Virus record (IMG/VR): IMGVR_UViG_3300033150_002199 | Coordinates: 31,296 to 67,579 of that record | DNA: 36,284 nucleotides | Direction: 5' to 3' (one strand) | DNA from: a virus | Notes under the pieces: generated by a model | What the model saw: only the letters and a program-made list of their open reading frames with translations | What the model was told of the DNA's origin: nothing | Database searches by the model: none | Program-made: the position numbers and the translations under genes | Part shown: piece by piece, positions 10,956-32,029 of the stretch | Position numbering within the stretch: position 1 is the first letter of the stretch | How the letters are laid out: every line of letters begins with the position of its first letter

Positions 10956-11140
10956 TTTAAGCGGCCAAAGTGGCAATGTAATAGAATTTGAGAAAGGGAT
11001 GTGGAGGGTCGAGCGTGGCAGTACTGCCAGGCCATAGGTCCAGTGACTTAAATAACTATAAGTATGCATTGGGTGTATCTCAAATTCGTACAGTGTGGGG
11101 CCCATATTGCATTAATGCATTATGGGGCGGCCGCCTTAAA
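10956..11140 (+). ncRNA. Candidate structured non-coding RNA A
   Basis: There is no gene here, but the stretch folds on itself through long-range helices. The outer helix TTTAAG-CGGCC (10956-10966) pairs with GGCCG-c-CTTAAA (11129-11140) with one bulge. GAATTTGAGA (10984-10993) pairs perfectly with TCTCAAATTC (11078-11087). Inside are a palindrome TGGCAGTACTGCCA (11016-11029) and a two-part arm CCAGTG-ACTTA/TAAGT-CATTGG (11040-11050 with 11059-11072). A last hairpin around TGCATTAATGCA (11101-11126) lies within the outer helix. The helices are nested and compatible. It begins 4 bases after tRNA-Tyr. No known RNA family was recognised. Confidence 0.5.
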
Positions 11141-11210: not shown

Positions 11211-11450
11211 AATGTGGCGGCTAAGCTCTTTGGTAAGAGCACGCTTATCGCCCTAATTATCTTGATAAGCGGAGGTTGGGAGGCACCGAGTTTATTATTC
11301 GTGAGGGCGATGGTAAATTCGACGCGCCTTAAGGGTTCGATTCCCCCCATTATAATAAGATTTATGGGGCGCGGCAAATTGGAACGGAATAAAGCGGATC
11401 GAGGAAGAAAAACATAGCAAAAGAGGTAGTATATATCCCGCGCCCCATAA
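11211..11450 (+). ncRNA. Candidate structured RNA B with tRNA-like parts
   Basis: Non-coding stretch with strong complementarity. A D-arm-like hairpin GCTCTT-tggt-AAGAGC (11225-11240) is followed by an 8-bp hairpin CGCTTATC/GATAAGCG (11242-11249 with 11264-11271). The loop of that hairpin (GCCCT) can pair with AGGGC at 11304-11308, forming a pseudoknot. A T-loop-like GGG-TTCGATT-CCC sits at 11333-11345. Then TTATGGGGCGCGG (11362-11374) pairs perfectly over 13 bp with CCGCGCCCCATAA (11438-11450); its ATGGGG could instead pair with CCCCAT at 11345-11350. It may be a decayed or insertion-bearing tRNA joined to another RNA element, or a new RNA. It is not a tmRNA: no tag frame and no CCA. Confidence 0.4.
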
Positions 11451-11469: not shown

Positions 11470-11537
11470 GCGGATATGGTGAAATGGTATCATCTTTGGC
11501 GCCAAAGGTTGCGGGTTCGAATCCGCTATTCGCTCCA
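11470..11537 (+). tRNA. Degenerate Gly-like tRNA
   Basis: The acceptor GCGGATA/TATTCGC, discriminator T and CCA match glycine tRNAs, as does the GGTGAAATGGTATCATC D arm. The anticodon arm is too short: CTTTG-GCGC-CAAAG, a 4-base loop instead of 7. The T stem lacks one base (GCGGG-TTCGAAT-CCGC). It is only 68 bases long, probably a pseudo-tRNA; an intact tRNA-Gly(GCC) exists at 16242. Confidence 0.5.
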
Positions 11538-11581: not shown

Positions 11582-11656
11582 GGTGGACGTAGCTTAATAG
11601 GAAAGCATGCGGCTGTGACCCGCAGGATAGGGGTGCAAATCCCCTCGTTCACCCCA
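11582..11656 (+). tRNA. tRNA-His(GTG)
   Basis: The G at 11582 is the extra G-1 that pairs with discriminator C73, the hallmark of tRNA-His. The acceptor GTGGACG/CGTTCAC and anticodon arm TGCGG-CTGTGAC-CCGCA give GTG. CCA is encoded. Confidence 0.93.
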
Positions 11657-11675
11657 AGATCTTTAAAAAATAAAC

Positions 11676-11869
11676 TTCTGAGTGGTAATGGTTGCGTTAA
11701 GATATGTTGGCTGATCATGTAGCCCGAGTATCAGCAGGTCAAAAGGCGACACCGTTTCCACCGACCTACAATAGTGCCCGCACAATGGCGGTCTTAACGC
11801 GGCAATCCTCATCGCCTCCGCGCTTATGACTCGATGACGATTGAGATTTATAGATGTCACCACTCAGAA
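11676..11869 (+). ncRNA. Candidate structured non-coding RNA C
   Basis: A 194-base stretch closed by a perfect 11-bp helix TTCTGAGTGGT (11676-11686) with ACCACTCAGAA (11859-11869). Inside it, GTTGCGTTAAGA (11691-11702) pairs with TCTTAACGCGGC (11792-11803) over 12 bp including two G-T pairs. CAATCCTCATCG (11803-11814) pairs with CGATGACGATTG (11832-11843) with one mismatch. Within the second helix are GCTGAT/ATCAGC (11710-11715, 11730-11735) and AGGTC/GACCT (11736-11740, 11763-11767). The result is a multi-branched fold. It sits between tRNA-His and tRNA-Asp, whose 5' end is 11 bases downstream. No coding frame and no recognised family. Confidence 0.6.
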
Positions 11870-11879
11870 TAATAATATT

Positions 11880-11955
11880 GGCCTGGTAGTATCAATAGTA
11901 AGAACGCTGTCCTGTCAAGGCAGTAGTGCGAGTGCAAGTCTCGTCCGGGCCGCCA
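11880..11955 (+). tRNA. tRNA-Asp(GTC)
   Basis: The acceptor GGCCTGG/CCGGGCC has one T-G pair. The anticodon arm CTGTC-CTGTCAA-GGCAG gives GTC, with discriminator G as in Asp tRNAs. The D stem is weak (only GT/AC pairs clearly). CCA is encoded. Confidence 0.9.
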
Positions 11956-11979
11956 GTATTATGGTGATATTGGACGCGC

Positions 11980-12053
11980 GAGTCGGTCGGTTAATGGTAA
12001 ACTTCCGGTCTCCAAAACCGGCACTGAAGGTTCAAGTCCTTCCCGGCTCGCCA
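11980..12053 (+). tRNA. tRNA-Trp(CCA)
   Basis: The acceptor GAGTCGG/CCGGCTC has one T-G pair. The anticodon arm CCGGT-CTCCAAA-ACCGG gives CCA, with discriminator G typical of Trp. The T arm GAAGG-TTCAAGT-CCTTC and CCA end are complete. Confidence 0.93.
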
Positions 12054-12089
12054 ATGTTTTTATGTAATGGAGGTATTAAAAATAACTAT

Positions 12090-12177
12090 TCCGAAGTCGC
12101 CTAATGGTATGGCAGCAGACTGTTAATCTGCCGTGGATTAATCCACATTGTAGGTTCGAATCCTACCTTCGGAGCCA
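12090..12177 (+). tRNA. tRNA-Asn(GTT) with a long variable arm
   Basis: The acceptor TCCGAAG/CTTCGGA is perfect. The anticodon arm GCAGA-CTGTTAA-TCTGC gives GTT, and the discriminator is G. Between the anticodon and T arms lies an extra hairpin GTGGA-TTAA-TCCAC, making an 88-base class II-like tRNA. Asn tRNAs are normally class I with a 4-5-base variable loop, so this is unusual. CCA is encoded. Confidence 0.85.
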
Positions 12178-12184
12178 ATTTTTT

Positions 12185-12258
12185 AGCCCCGTAGCCTAAT
12201 GGAAAGGCGCAAGATTCTGGCTCTTGTGATGTGCGTTCGACTCGCACCGGGGCTTCCA
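12185..12258 (+). tRNA. tRNA-Gln(CTG)
   Basis: Acceptor AGCCCCG/CGGGGCT, D arm GCC...GGC, anticodon arm CAAGA-TTCTGGC-TCTTG giving CTG. T arm GTGCG-TTCGACT-CGCAC, discriminator T, CCA encoded. It shares its acceptor with the Gln(TTG) tRNA at 15689, which supports the Gln call. Confidence 0.88.
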
Positions 12259-12280
12259 AATATCTATTCATCCTAATATT

Positions 12281-12372
12281 GGCGGGGTGCCAGAGTGGGT
12301 TATTGGAGCGGTCTTGAAAACCGTCGGTGTTCTACCAAACATCCGTGGGTTCGAATCCCACCCCCGCCGCCA
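12281..12372 (+). tRNA. tRNA-Ser(TGA)
   Basis: Class II tRNA with a long variable arm, acceptor GGCGGGG/CCCCGCC, anticodon arm GCGGT-CTTGAAA-ACCGT giving TGA, discriminator G, CCA encoded. It is the last tRNA of the first block; the methyltransferase pseudogene starts 27 bases later. Confidence 0.92.
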
Positions 12373-12399
12373 CCTTATTAATATATAATAGGAGTAAGC

Positions 12400-13034
12400 A
12401 TGGCACTTGCTATATTCAACGGCCACCGCTTCGATCCTTCACGCATTTACTCAAAAGCCGAGGCAGCGGTTATTGTAGATGCTGGTGCGTGTTGTGGGGA
12501 ATATTCCAGGTGGCTTCGAGACGTACAAGCATATTGCGGTAAACTGTATATGTTCGAACCCGCACATAATAATCTAAGCGATCTTGCATCCATAGTAGAC
12601 GATAGAACATTTCTAATCCCCTATGCTCTTATTGGCCGCGGCGGGTGGGTCGTTAACGATTTTGCCGAATACAAAGAGTCTCGGGAAATGGAAAGCGTCG
12701 GGAATTTATGGGGCCGAATCGACTCTATTTCGATAGAAGAGCCCACAATATATTCTGTTCCCGCGGTACCAATAAACGAAATATTTTACCGCAAATAGAT
12801 TATCTTAAAATGGATATCGAGGGCCTTGAAGGAGACGTAATAAATGCAATGAGTCACAATACGGCAAAGCGTATAAAGCAAATGTCAATTGAGATTCACC
12901 CAAACGTATCTCCGGACCAAATCATGGAAACGTTGAAGAGTCTTGGATATACTACAGCAATGTTTGTGCATGATGAAATTGGTATAGTAGAAGGAGACTC
13001 TGAAATTTTAGAATGTTATGCATATATGTCATAA
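12400..13034 (+). pseudogene. FkbM-type methyltransferase broken by a frameshift
   Basis: The first frame (12400-12798) reads VIVDAGACCGEYSRWL, a SAM-binding glycine loop, then KLYMFEPAHNN and VPINEIFYRK before a stop. Coding continues one base back in frame as IDYLKMDIEGLEGD...CYAYMS to 13034. The paralogue at 26352-26951 has the same order (LDVGVCRGETTRAL, YMFEPARNN, VPIN, DYIQFDVEGMEKE) in one frame. The break is at a TTTT run near 12785; one extra T would restore EIFLPQIDYLKMDIEG. This is a real one-base loss or a sequencing error in a homopolymer. No classical slippery heptamer for programmed -1 shifting is present. TAGGAG lies upstream of the ATG. Confidence 0.75.
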
Positions 13035-13074
13035 AATTATTTTATGATATCTTATAATATTAGTGGAGGTGTAT

Positions 13075-14088
13075 ATGTCAAAACAACAATTGGAAAAAGT
13101 CGAACTTCTGTGGTCACGCGCATGCCCGTTCAATTGTGCGGGGTGTGCTATGAAGAAAGCGGTTAATTATAATGACTCGGGTACGATAGAAGAGTGGAAA
13201 CGGGGATTTGAAAATATTAAGGCTCTTGGATGTGAATTTGTGGCCATATATGGTGCAGAGCCCCTTGTTAGATTTAATTCGCTCGTAGATATCATACGAC
13301 TAATACATACCGTTGGCATGGAATGTACTGTTATAACGGCACTATATGCTAAAGATAAAGTGCAAGAGTTGATAGATAAATCTGGGCTTAACTCCATTAC
13401 GATATCTTATGATGGGATTGCCGAAGATGACAGAACTACTAAGGGGATGAATGGACTTAAGTTGCTCAAAGACATAGAGGTAGATGATAAAGCAGTTTGT
13501 TGTACAATATCCAAATTAAATCAAACGCGACTCATCCAAACGATGGATGAAGTATTGGATACGGGTTACTGGTTTCTATTTGATATTGCGCACAAGGCGA
13601 ACCAACCCGCGCAAGTTAGTAAATGTTCTGATACACTAGAACCCGTAGAAGCGAATTGGCTTAAGCAATTTTTAACTGCGGCTATTGAGCGAAAAGAAGA
13701 TGGGGCAAAAATACATCCCAGCATACATTGGATGACCTATCTTAAAGAGCATTATGCTGATGGCCCAGGTGATGTTGCCAGAAACGTGTGGCATTGCTAT
13801 GATGAGAATACGGCAACACTTGGATGGATAACGGTGGAATTTAATGGATTGGTGTACCCATGTGACGACTATCAAATCCCGATAGTAAATCCGGCAACAT
13901 CTCACGCGCTGCGAATATGGACGCTTAATGAAATAGATGTTGAGACACTGGTGAAAGAACGAAATCGAATTGTTCGTCCTTGCCGCGGCTGCGCTTGGAA
14001 TACACATGCAGATGCGATGAGCATAACGTCTGGCGAAATTGATAGAGGTACTTATGTCCATAATCTTTTTGGAGAAGACCATGCATAA
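13075..14088 (+). CDS. Radical SAM/SPASM-like protein
   Basis: 337 residues. CPFNCAGC (Cys17, Cys21, Cys24) is the CxxxCxxC motif that holds the [4Fe-4S] cluster and SAM. The GAEPL segment replaces the usual GGEPL. Cysteines near the C-terminus (WHCYDE, VYPCDDY, RPCRGCAWN) suggest a second, SPASM-like cluster. The substrate is unknown. It overlaps the QueC-HAD gene by 8 bases, so the two likely act in one pathway; it is not itself a QueE (that gene is at 27814). ATG 13075 is chosen because GGAGG (13065-13069) lies 5 bases upstream. A TATAAT box at 13053-13058 lacks a -35 partner. Confidence 0.7.
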   Translation: MSKQQLEKVELLWSRACPFNCAGCAMKKAVNYNDSGTIEEWKRGFENIKALGCEFVAIYGAEPLVRFNSLVDIIRLIHTVGMECTVITALYAKDKVQELIDKSGLNSITISYDGIAEDDRTTKGMNGLKLLKDIEVDDKAVCCTISKLNQTRLIQTMDEVLDTGYWFLFDIAHKANQPAQVSKCSDTLEPVEANWLKQFLTAAIERKEDGAKIHPSIHWMTYLKEHYADGPGDVARNVWHCYDENTATLGWITVEFNGLVYPCDDYQIPIVNPATSHALRIWTLNEIDVETLVKERNRIVRPCRGCAWNTHADAMSITSGEIDRGTYVHNLFGEDHA

Positions 14089-15058
14089 AGTCATTTTATG
14101 CTCCGGTGGGATTGATAGTTTTATAATGTACGAATGGCTGTTGTCGAATAAACAGCTATTTGATATATTTACGCCGTTGTATATTGATTATGGGCAAAAG
14201 TATGTAAAGGCGGAATTAGAAGCATTAAATAGGTTGATACCAAATATAGAAGTAATTAGGGTACAAGGGACGCCATATGAAGAAATAAACAGTGGCTTTA
14301 CGCCGGCACGAAATTTATTTTTGGCGTCGATCGCCGTGATGTATGCAAATGCTGACATTGTTTATATGGCCGGATTGAAAGACGATAATGTATCCGACAA
14401 AAATCCGGAAGCATTTGAGCAGATGGGGTATATGCTTTCTAAGTTTAGTAGAAAGAAAATAATTGTAGATAGTCCGTTTTTTGACGTAACAAAGGCACAA
14501 ATAGTAAGCAAATATCTTGCTGCTGGTGGAAGCCCAGACAAATTACGCGAGACCTTTTCGTGTTATGCGCCCATTCGAGAAAAAGATCCTTGCTATAATT
14601 GCCCTGCATGTTTTCGTAGATGGGTCGCGTTAACAGCCAATGGTATTTCAATGCCACCAATAAACCGCGATATTGTATTAAAATACCTAAAGAAACTTAA
14701 CAATTATTGCCCGGAGCGAGTTAACGCAACACTTGCTGCCCTTAATGTACATTTTCGCGACGGGATATATTTGATAGATATAGATAATATACTAACTGCG
14801 GAGACAAGTACATCAGGGGTTCCCAATTATAAGGATTATCATGTACATGCTCATAACGCCGCGGCAGTTAGGGCAATATATCATGAGCATAAGGATGTGG
14901 CAATAATCCTTTATACCAGCAGATGGGGCATAGACCGATATATTACCGAGCAATGGCTTGCAGAAAACCAAATACCATATCATGCACTATTGATGGATAA
15001 ACCATTTGCAACTAAATATATCGATGATAAAGCAGTAAATAGTCTTGATTTTACATAG
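14081..15058 (+). CDS. queC: QueC-like 7-cyano-7-deazaguanine synthase fused to a HAD domain
   Basis: The N-terminal part (1-193) is QueC: PP-loop CSGGIDS (7-13), DYGQKYVKAE (36-45), FTPARNLFLASIA (73-85), SPFFDVTKAQIV (131-142), and a zinc site Cys161, Cys171, Cys174, Cys177 (PCYNCPACFRRW). QueC converts 7-carboxy-7-deazaguanine to preQ0. The C-terminal part (about 225-325) is a HAD-type phosphatase-like domain: LIDIDNILT with Asp233 and Asp235, ILYTSRWG with Thr279/Ser280, and KPFATKYIDDKA with Lys307 and Asp315/316. I know of no standard QueC with this extension. ATG 14081 has GGAGAAG 6 bases upstream and overlaps the radical SAM gene. Neighbouring tRNAs include GUN acceptors for queuosine. 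Confidence 0.85.
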   Translation: MHKVILCSGGIDSFIMYEWLLSNKQLFDIFTPLYIDYGQKYVKAELEALNRLIPNIEVIRVQGTPYEEINSGFTPARNLFLASIAVMYANADIVYMAGLKDDNVSDKNPEAFEQMGYMLSKFSRKKIIVDSPFFDVTKAQIVSKYLAAGGSPDKLRETFSCYAPIREKDPCYNCPACFRRWVALTANGISMPPINRDIVLKYLKKLNNYCPERVNATLAALNVHFRDGIYLIDIDNILTAETSTSGVPNYKDYHVHAHNAAAVRAIYHEHKDVAIILYTSRWGIDRYITEQWLAENQIPYHALLMDKPFATKYIDDKAVNSLDFT

Positions 15059-17466: not shown

Positions 17467-17541
17467 GCCGGGCGTCGTATAATAGAATTATGACCGCCTC
17501 GTAAGCGGTAGACGCGGGTGCGATTCCCGCCCCCGGCTCCA
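17467..17541 (+). tRNA. tRNA-Thr(CGT)
   Basis: Acceptor GCCGGGC/CCCCGGC with a C-C mismatch at the last pair. Anticodon arm ACCGC-CTCGTAA-GCGGT giving CGT, T arm GCGGG-TGCGATT-CCCGC, CCA encoded. Positions 8-9 are GT rather than TA. Near-copy of the Thr(TGT) tRNA at 15520. Confidence 0.88.
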
Positions 17542-17733: not shown

Positions 17734-17813
17734 AATGGGGTAGCCAGTAGTCGGGATGGGCCGGCCTCATAAGTCGGTATTTGGTGTGGGTGCAATTCTC
17801 ATCCCCGCCACCA
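17734..17813 (+). tRNA. tRNA-Met-like (CAT), mismatched acceptor
   Basis: The anticodon arm CCGGC-CTCATAA-GTCGG gives CAT, and the T arm GTGGG-TGCAATT-CTCAT is paired. The acceptor AATGGGG/CCCCGCC pairs only at positions 3-7; A1-C72 and A2-C71 are mismatched. An unpaired position 1-72 is a feature of initiator tRNA, but the anticodon stem lacks the initiator G-C pairs. Discriminator A, CCA encoded. Confidence 0.7.
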
Positions 17814-27813: not shown

Positions 27814-28587
27814 ATGAGATTGGCAGAGCGTCCCTTTGTAAGCATTCAGGGTGAAGGCCCATATGTAGGTAGGCCGAGCTTGTTTATTAGACTGCAGGGA
27901 TGCAATCTAAAACCACCTTGCGCATGGTGCGATACTGCATATGCATTGAGCAAAACCGCTGGGGAAGAAATAGATACTATAGACCTTTTTGGTATTTTCA
28001 AAGCGCTTCGTCCCCAATATGAAAATGTAGTGATAACGGGCGGGGAACCATTTCTATTTCAACATGAGATAGTAGATATTCATAGATATTTTTATGAAAG
28101 ATCGACGTACCTTGCACCAACATTTGAAATCGAAACAAATGGTTCTCTAGCTCCCGATATCGGGATATTATCTGCCGCCCTGGGGCCGGGAACCGGTATA
28201 CGTCTAAGCCCTAAATATGCACACCATGACGGCATAGTTCCTCGGGGGGCATCTAATATTGTTAGGATGTACCATGACATCCAGAGAGAACTTAAATGTT
28301 CTCTCATTATCAAGTTAGTTGCCGAAGTTACAGATATATCCGATGAATCTGTAAATTGGCTTGAAACGATATTAAAGCAAAGAATTCAATTTCTGAGGAG
28401 GATATTTAGAGAATCACAAATAGGAAATCAACTACCTCAAGCCCCTATTTATATAATGCCATTGGGTGCGACACAAGAAGAGCAACTAAACGTTATGGAA
28501 TTGATAGCCGATTTTTGTCTCAAAAATTCATATCGATTTTCTCCAAGATTACATACGCTTATATGGGGAAACGTTAGAGGAAAATAA
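27814..28587 (+). CDS. queE: QueE, 7-carboxy-7-deazaguanine synthase
   Basis: 257 residues. Radical SAM enzyme that turns 6-carboxy-tetrahydropterin into 7-carboxy-7-deazaguanine. SIQGEGPYVGRPSLFIRLQG leads to the cluster motif CNLKPPCAWCDT with Cys30, Cys36 and Cys39. The usual QueE has CxxxCxxC; here the first gap is five residues. VVITGGEPFLF, EIETNGS and RLSPKYA are the expected substrate and SAM contacts, and SPRLHTLIWGNVRGK is the QueE C-terminus. AAAAGGAGAAG precedes the ATG. Neither QueD nor FolE is in the window. Followed by a QueC-like gene. Confidence 0.9.
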   Translation: MRLAERPFVSIQGEGPYVGRPSLFIRLQGCNLKPPCAWCDTAYALSKTAGEEIDTIDLFGIFKALRPQYENVVITGGEPFLFQHEIVDIHRYFYERSTYLAPTFEIETNGSLAPDIGILSAALGPGTGIRLSPKYAHHDGIVPRGASNIVRMYHDIQRELKCSLIIKLVAEVTDISDESVNWLETILKQRIQFLRRIFRESQIGNQLPQAPIYIMPLGATQEEQLNVMELIADFCLKNSYRFSPRLHTLIWGNVRGK

Positions 28588-28598
28588 GGAGAATACTA

Positions 28599-29195
28599 AT
28601 GAAAATTGATTCTCTTCTGGACTATGATGAAATTGCCATATTAATTGACGGGGACATTCCACCGACTACTCTATTAGCAGATCTGGTCGCACATGGTATA
28701 AAACATATAACAGCGATTAGAGTCGATGATGATGAGTTGCCTGCTGATCCGGTAAAAACACGCATGGCTGAAATTCAAAGTGCATATTATGGCGCAAATT
28801 ATATTCATACTACGTCGCATGATATAACCATAGAACCTATTGACTGCGATGCAATTGTAGCGGATGTGTTGCGCGCGGCGAGTATTGCACTTGACCGTGG
28901 CATTGGCGTACTTGTTGATGCACAGTATAACCAATTTAGTGTACCACCCGATGGAGCTCTATTTAAGAATACTGATATTGTACTTGCGCGACCATATTCA
29001 AAATTAACGCTTGATGAAATTATAAAAATAGGTGTTGCATTGGGCGTCGATTATCGTTATACTATAAGTTGTATAAAAGGAAATGATTGCGGAGAATGCA
29101 GCAAGTGCAAAGACCGTATACATGCGTTCATATTAAATGGTTGCATAGATCCTCTTGAAAGCGAATATGGGGGTGAAATAGAATCGACTGTATAG
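28599..29195 (+). CDS. QueC-like protein without the PP-loop
   Basis: 198 residues. The C-terminal half is clearly QueC: SKLTLDEIIKIGVALGV, then TISCIKGNDCGECSKCKDR with zinc ligands Cys158, Cys164, Cys167 and Cys170, and HAFILNGCIDP. The N-terminal half keeps the place of the ATP-binding PP-loop but reads IDGDIPPTTLLADLV where QueC has LSGGxDSTTLL, so adenylation by the standard route seems lost. It follows queE by 11 bases with an AAGGAG site. It might act on a different 7-deazaguanine step, as subunit of the intact QueC-HAD (14081), or be a scaffold. The tmRNA 5' end overlaps its last 27 bases. Confidence 0.75.
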   Translation: MKIDSLLDYDEIAILIDGDIPPTTLLADLVAHGIKHITAIRVDDDELPADPVKTRMAEIQSAYYGANYIHTTSHDITIEPIDCDAIVADVLRAASIALDRGIGVLVDAQYNQFSVPPDGALFKNTDIVLARPYSKLTLDEIIKIGVALGVDYRYTISCIKGNDCGECSKCKDRIHAFILNGCIDPLESEYGGEIESTV

Positions 29196-29524
29196 TTGTA
29201 AGTAAAGGGTGCACAACGAGGTGTCGGATGGCCTCGTAAAACCCCGACAAACAAAATAATTGCTGACAATAGCAACTATAGAATGGCAGCTTAAAGCCAT
29301 TCCGCTACATATTTTTGCCTGTTAAAATATGCAGCGACCGGTAACAGGATAGGGCAATATTCTTAAACTCGGGAGAGTATATGCCGACAATAAACCGAGT
29401 TGCGCGTATGCTGGTCTGGTTTGGAGTCCAGTATTCGCTAAGTTTAAATCCAAACCTATTTGTGTAGACCCCTTTATAAATAAACTATAGCAGGACGTCG
29501 GGGCAGAACCGACCACCTCCACCA
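29169..29524 (+). ncRNA. ssrA: tmRNA
   Basis: Rescues stalled ribosomes and tags the nascent protein. 5' GGGGGTG (29169-29175) pairs with CACCTCC (29514-29520), including a G3-U70 pair for alanine charging, followed by A and CCA. Early AATCGAC matches the conserved TTCGAC-type 5' region, and GGTGCA...CGAGG...CCTCGTAAAA matches the region before the tag in bacterial tmRNAs. The resume codon GCT at 29262 opens the tag ADNSNYRMAA, ending TAA 29292-29294. The total of 356 bases is normal. The T stem GTCGG/CCGAC is paired, but the T loop is GGCAGAA, lacking the usual TTC. It overlaps the QueC-like gene by 27 bases. Confidence 0.92.
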
Positions 29525-31156: not shown

Positions 31157-32029
31157 GTGGGATATATGAAAATTCCCAATTTGTATAAGGACCAAACCAT
31201 TTTAATGTTTAAGAAATGTTTTGCAATGGAAAAAATCCATGGTACCAGCACGCACATTACATACACTCCTGATGCAAACACGCTTACATTCTTCTCTGGT
31301 GGCGTAAAGTATGAAGACTTTGTGAATTTGTTCGATGTAGAAGCATTGACTCGTACCTTCGCACAGGCGAATTTTCCAACTACAACCACTATATATGGAG
31401 AAGCCTATGGTGGAAAGTGCCAAGGGATGGCACATATATATGGAAAAGATTTGCGGTTTGTCGCATTCGAGGCACAAATAGGTAATTTGTTCTTGGCTGT
31501 TCCGCAAGCCGAAAATGTTGCTACTCGCCTTGGCTTGGATTTCGTTGACTATAAGTTGATTAATACTGATATGAATGAGATTGACGCTGAGCGTGACCGA
31601 CCATCCGCACAAGCCATAAAAAATGGAATGCCGAATGATTGCCCACGGGAAGGGATTGTATTACGCCCCCAAAAAGAATTTAGAGATAATAGCGGTAGGC
31701 GTATCATTGCCAAGCACAAGTCGGTAGATTTTTCTGAGACGGCAACGCCCCGTAAGGTAACAGACCCGAGCAAGCTTAAGCGGCTGGCAGAAGCAAATGA
31801 AATTGCCGATGAATGGGTCACTGAAATGCGCATGTCACATATCCTGGGAAAATTATCGCCAGAAAAAATTACCATCCAAAATACTGGGTTGGTTGTTCAA
31901 ATGATGTTGGAGGATATTTTAGTTGAGGCGGAAGGTGAAATTGAAGATTCCTCAGCCGCGAGAAAGGCAATTTGCCGCCGTGCCGCATTGATGTATAAGC
32001 GGCGTCTCAATCTCGGCCTCGTTACATAG
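31157..32029 (+). CDS. RNA ligase, Rnl2-like
   Basis: 290 residues. CFAMEKIHGTS holds the nucleotidyl motif I KxHG (Lys26-Gly29). IYGEAYGGKCQGM is motif III-like, CPREGIVLRP is motif IV, and RRIIAKHKSVDFSE is motif V with two lysines. The C-terminus SAARKAICRRAALMYKRRL is helical, as in T4 Rnl2. It seals nicks in RNA, for example tRNAs cut by host defence nucleases, which fits a phage with a large tRNA array. GTG 31157 is preferred because AGGAG lies 10 bases upstream; ATG 31166 is further away. Confidence 0.8.
   Translation: MGYMKIPNLYKDQTILMFKKCFAMEKIHGTSTHITYTPDANTLTFFSGGVKYEDFVNLFDVEALTRTFAQANFPTTTTIYGEAYGGKCQGMAHIYGKDLRFVAFEAQIGNLFLAVPQAENVATRLGLDFVDYKLINTDMNEIDAERDRPSAQAIKNGMPNDCPREGIVLRPQKEFRDNSGRRIIAKHKSVDFSETATPRKVTDPSKLKRLAEANEIADEWVTEMRMSHILGKLSPEKITIQNTGLVVQMMLEDILVEAEGEIEDSSAARKAICRRAALMYKRRLNLGLVT

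Follow-up and report, generated by a model that had tools for sequence, protein, structure and literature searches.

The tRNA cluster of phage T4 contains two small RNAs, rnaC (species 1) of 139 nt and rnaD (species 2) of 119 nt. RNA C and RNA D are described as late RNAs of unknown function with Northern blot support (PMC9697503). GOLLD and ROOL are structured RNAs, also of unknown function, which phages and prophages encode, in many cases close to tRNA islands; many GOLLD RNAs are longer than 800 nt, ROOL has been called large and ornate, and the profiles of both in that study came from Rfam (PMC12286853).

The element described here, element C, occupies 194 nt (11676-11869) of a 36,284-nt window of viral DNA, which comprises bases 31296-67579 of a 67.6-kb virus record. 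It lies in the 223-nt gap (11657-11879) between tRNA-His (GTG; 11583-11656) and tRNA-Asp (GTC; 11880-11955), both on the plus strand and both identified by ARAGORN and Rfam, beginning 19 nt past the end of the former and ending 10 nt ahead of the start of the latter. ARAGORN makes 24 calls in the window for the surrounding tRNA array. The terminase of the phage belongs to the T4 family, and a sub-threshold match to the T4 gp19 tail-tube (E 0.00015) occurs in the same phage. The source is an uncultured, T4-like phage. Because its best public terminase matches reach only 33% identity among phages and 38% in IMG/VR, it represents an isolated lineage within the collections searched. Like T4 RNA C and RNA D, element C is a small non-coding RNA, in this case a predicted one, located by the tRNA genes of a T4-type phage, whereas GOLLD and ROOL are large in comparison with its 194 nt.

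Helices of element C and the strength of its fold

The strand of element C was inferred from the flanking tRNAs, and its features are given here on the plus strand. In the minimum free energy (MFE) structure (-63.7 kcal/mol), the closing helix P1 joins 11676-11686 to 11859-11869 by 11 of 11 Watson-Crick pairs, and helix P2 inside it joins 11691-11702 (GUUGCGUUAAGA) to 11792-11803 (UCUUAACGCGGC) by 12 pairs, 10 Watson-Crick and 2 G-U. Both helices thus agree with the initial annotation, which had described a perfect 11-bp closing helix enclosing a 12-bp helix with smaller hairpins nested inside. The smaller hairpins are also present, namely GCUGAU/AUCAGC at 11710-11735 (pair probability about 0.6), AGGUC/GACCU at 11736-11767 (0.86-0.99) and CCGC/GCGG at 11778-11791 (0.65-0.76), together with an interrupted hairpin, P3 (AAUC-c-UCAUCG/CGAUGA-c-GAUU), at 11804-11842 (0.68-0.87). 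For P3, 11 of 12 pairs had been claimed. This complementarity does exist between 11803-11814 and 11832-11843 around a C-C mismatch, but the MFE structure has 10 of 11 pairs, because C11803 cannot sit in P2 and P3 at once. Pair probabilities are about 0.7-1.0 in P1 and P2, and the inner hairpins are less certain (0.3-0.99).

A nested fold of this kind had been judged improbable by chance, and folding against shuffled controls had been proposed. The 194-nt element has a z-score of -3.13, with 1 of 200 shuffles equally good. Testing the full 223-nt gap made the result independent of the ends originally chosen for the element: the gap folds at -64.4 kcal/mol (z -3.13), which is equalled by 3 of 1000 dinucleotide shuffles and surpasses the other 997, and two helices of at least 10 bp, each enclosing more than 60 nt, appear in 1 of 1000 shuffles of the gap. 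The judgement therefore stands, at about 0.001-0.003 per test against shuffles. All 62 predicted pairs are retained when the element is folded in 223-nt, 373-nt and 996-nt contexts, the last corresponding to a 1-kb context, and element C is predicted to fold independently of its neighbours.

These values have to be weighed against the possibility that element C is a chance fold of non-functional spacer DNA, noticed among 36 kb for its looks. When 285 of the 373 plus-strand windows matching the element in size were scanned, 6 (2%) gave z<-3, some of them within genes; three of the six fall in the tRNA array, and the other three lie outside it, beginning at 2814, 14066 and 19207. The antisense strand of element C has a fold at least as good (z -3.69), and because both strands fold, the fold proves no strand and the plus strand was taken from context. 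Given the six windows and the equally well-folded minus strand, the evidence for a real structure in element C is good but not overwhelming. Both observations would suit a chance fold, as would the failure to find a homologue (see below), but shuffles match the energy of the gap in only 3 of 1000 cases and form two long enclosing helices in 1 of 1000, and element C is a long intergenic stretch in a compact phage array, near two more perfectly closed spacers. We consider a chance fold unlikely.

Known families, coding potential and relatives

The statement of the initial annotation that no gene fits the element holds, since the reading frames of element C include no credible gene or protein family and gave no coding match; a protein gene was rejected, as the 66-aa minus-strand open reading frame has no family. 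Rfam at its own thresholds placed no family on element C, a lax scan of the region placed nothing on it, and a lax scan of 11657-11879 with E up to 10 returned just two chance snoRNA matches on the minus strand (E=4.9). No Rfam model of a tRNA or tRNA relic, tmRNA, group I or group II intron, RNase P RNA or 6S RNA matched 11657-11879, and the GOLLD and ROOL covariance models left element C unmatched in the Rfam scans. Hence, the proposed Rfam search, including the run on the 223-nt gap with relaxed filters, assigns element C to no known family, and the intron, tRNA relic or protein gene that might have accounted for it was looked for and not found.

A decayed relic of a known element, such as a tRNA, an intron or an inverted-repeat mobile element, could be suspected because some tRNA-like sequences in the array, such as that at 11213-11356, are degenerate or unusual, and because the array also contains an HNH endonuclease gene. 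We regard such an origin as highly improbable. Up to E=10, nothing in element C matches a tRNA, an intron or RNase P, and a tRNA relic or intron was rejected on the lax scan of the gap; decay would not yield a perfect closing helix. A mobile element was rejected because the terminal repeats of the three spacer elements in the array (10984-11087, 11362-11450 and element C) differ and thus provide no common mobile-element end.

Searching phages and plasmids with element C by blastn gave nothing beyond chance. The covariance-model search of viral sequences that had been recommended could be run in so far as a model, R1, was built from the single sequence of element C, but element C itself was all that R1 found when run on the record of origin, on 99 further viral records and on 8 array regions from phages; a chance match in phiCbK had the next-best score, 8.4 bits (E=0.68). 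The helix pattern of element C gave 0 matches over IMG/VR. Relatives were sought in IMG/VR via the radical SAM protein, the terminase (alone and as an alignment), a piece of QueC and a piece of the polymerase, and the terminase alignment was also run against GTDB genomes. The collections searched contained no close relative of the phage, the nearest terminases being 38% identical, and neither phages and plasmids, nor the IMG/VR records of the nearest phages that came up, nor the contigs of T4-like relatives gave a homologue of element C.

On the T4 region, R1 gave nothing at E<=10, with no sequence or model match to rnaC or rnaD, and homology of element C to either RNA was found neither in sequence nor in structure. 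A tRNA-like T-arm (GGGTTCGAATCCC) forms the end of T4 RNA C but is absent from element C. The fold z-scores are -4.57 for T4 rnaC and -0.83 for T4 rnaD, the latter no better than its own shuffles. As T4 rnaC and rnaD have no Rfam match at E<=0.1, neither they nor element C match any Rfam family, and the missing match is thus weak evidence of novelty. The suggestion that element C could be a new phage ncRNA is partly supported by the nested fold, the lack of a gene and the lack of an Rfam family, but it overstated the novelty in kind, because T4 RNA C and RNA D, GOLLD and ROOL were already known. Element C is probably a further case of a known kind, the small, stable RNAs that phages encode within tRNA clusters, homology to T4 RNA C or RNA D not being implied.

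Among 38 inter-tRNA gaps surveyed across 12 sources, five had z<-3. Unannotated inter-tRNA gaps of phiCbK (L143:6233-6388, z -4.1) and Cronobacter phage LPCS28 (L144:1097-1216, z -3.6) have strong predicted folds like element C and no tRNA match; unlike element C, they have no long closing helix and no R1 match. The Aswh_1 gap with z<-3 holds an open frame of 115 codons. Another of the five, in Bacillus phage FADO, includes a tRNA-like sequence; the FADO segment with a 21-bp perfect inverted repeat (L137:7009-7234) was rejected as an analogue, since its 3' part reads as an unannotated tRNA-His-like sequence. The 3' arm of that repeat overlaps the 5' part of the tRNA-His-like sequence, making an antisense arm to the tRNA.

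Other spacers and tRNA genes of the array

Two other spacers, upstream of element C, are closed by long perfect helices, 10984-11087 by one of 10 bp (z -2.62 for the folded stretch) and 11362-11450 by one of 13 bp (z -3.77 for the folded stretch). Their closing helices and that of element C are unrelated in sequence, and the long helix is the sole feature common to the three. It seems to us quite doubtful that 10984-11087, 11362-11450 and 11676-11869 are separate functional phage RNAs of an undescribed type, a set of closed-stem RNAs among tRNAs that would act on host translation or defence in the course of infection.

The main rival to a stable RNA, ahead of a chance fold, is a passive processing spacer, in which the helix would serve as an RNase III-type stalk or as an insulator between tRNA precursors and the excised RNA would have no further function. 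A perfect terminal helix near both tRNAs, a fold independent of the adjacent tRNAs and the presence of three array spacers with a long closing helix but no common sequence are consistent with this explanation. On the other hand, a stalk needs neither the 12-bp second helix nor the elaborate interior of element C, and most array spacers are about 10-40 nt long and have no such stalk. On balance, we find a passive spacer rather unlikely.

Several other features of the phage were observed. The sequence at 11213-11356 resembles a tRNA in having stretches like a D-arm and a T-arm (GGGTTCGATTCCC), but it carries about 60 extra bases and is uncalled by ARAGORN; its T-arm-like stretch recalls T4 RNA C, which likewise ends in a T-arm. 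Rfam detected tRNAs missed by ARAGORN at 11470-11534 and 17468-17537, and the sequence at 17735-17812, also uncalled by ARAGORN, looks by eye like a tRNA with a CAT anticodon. The phage encodes a tmRNA at 29169-29524 (Rfam 130.6 bits) and, at 31157-32029, an RNA ligase (PF09414) that may serve in tRNA repair. QueC-like, QueE-like, FolE-like and DpdA/TGT-like genes were recognised by eye (14039-15058 and 27814-28587 in the window; L128:11339-11929 and 11945-13189) and suggest 7-deazaguanine modification of the phage DNA.

Possible release and role of element C

Our preferred explanation, to which we assign about half of our confidence, is that element C is a lineage-specific small structured RNA of a T4-like phage, which would be co-transcribed with the tRNAs and accumulate as a stable RNA. 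As a spacer, element C would be part of the array transcript, and RNase P trimming of tRNA-Asp together with 3' processing of tRNA-His would free it without a dedicated enzyme. Because the perfect terminal helix would shield the freed RNA from exonucleases, it could then build up in stable form, like T4 RNA C and RNA D. The steps of release and stability follow general knowledge of tRNA maturation. The long perfect closing helices of the two other spacers also speak for this explanation. As to its role, our best guess is that element C may be a protein-binding or decoy RNA late in infection; a simpler alternative is a passive insulator that would keep the neighbouring tRNA precursors folding apart.

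A clear and compact case in a distant T4-type phage would add to the open question of what T4 RNA C and RNA D do. Annotation of phage tRNA arrays usually stops at the tRNAs, and element C suggests a systematic screening of inter-tRNA gaps for stable RNAs.
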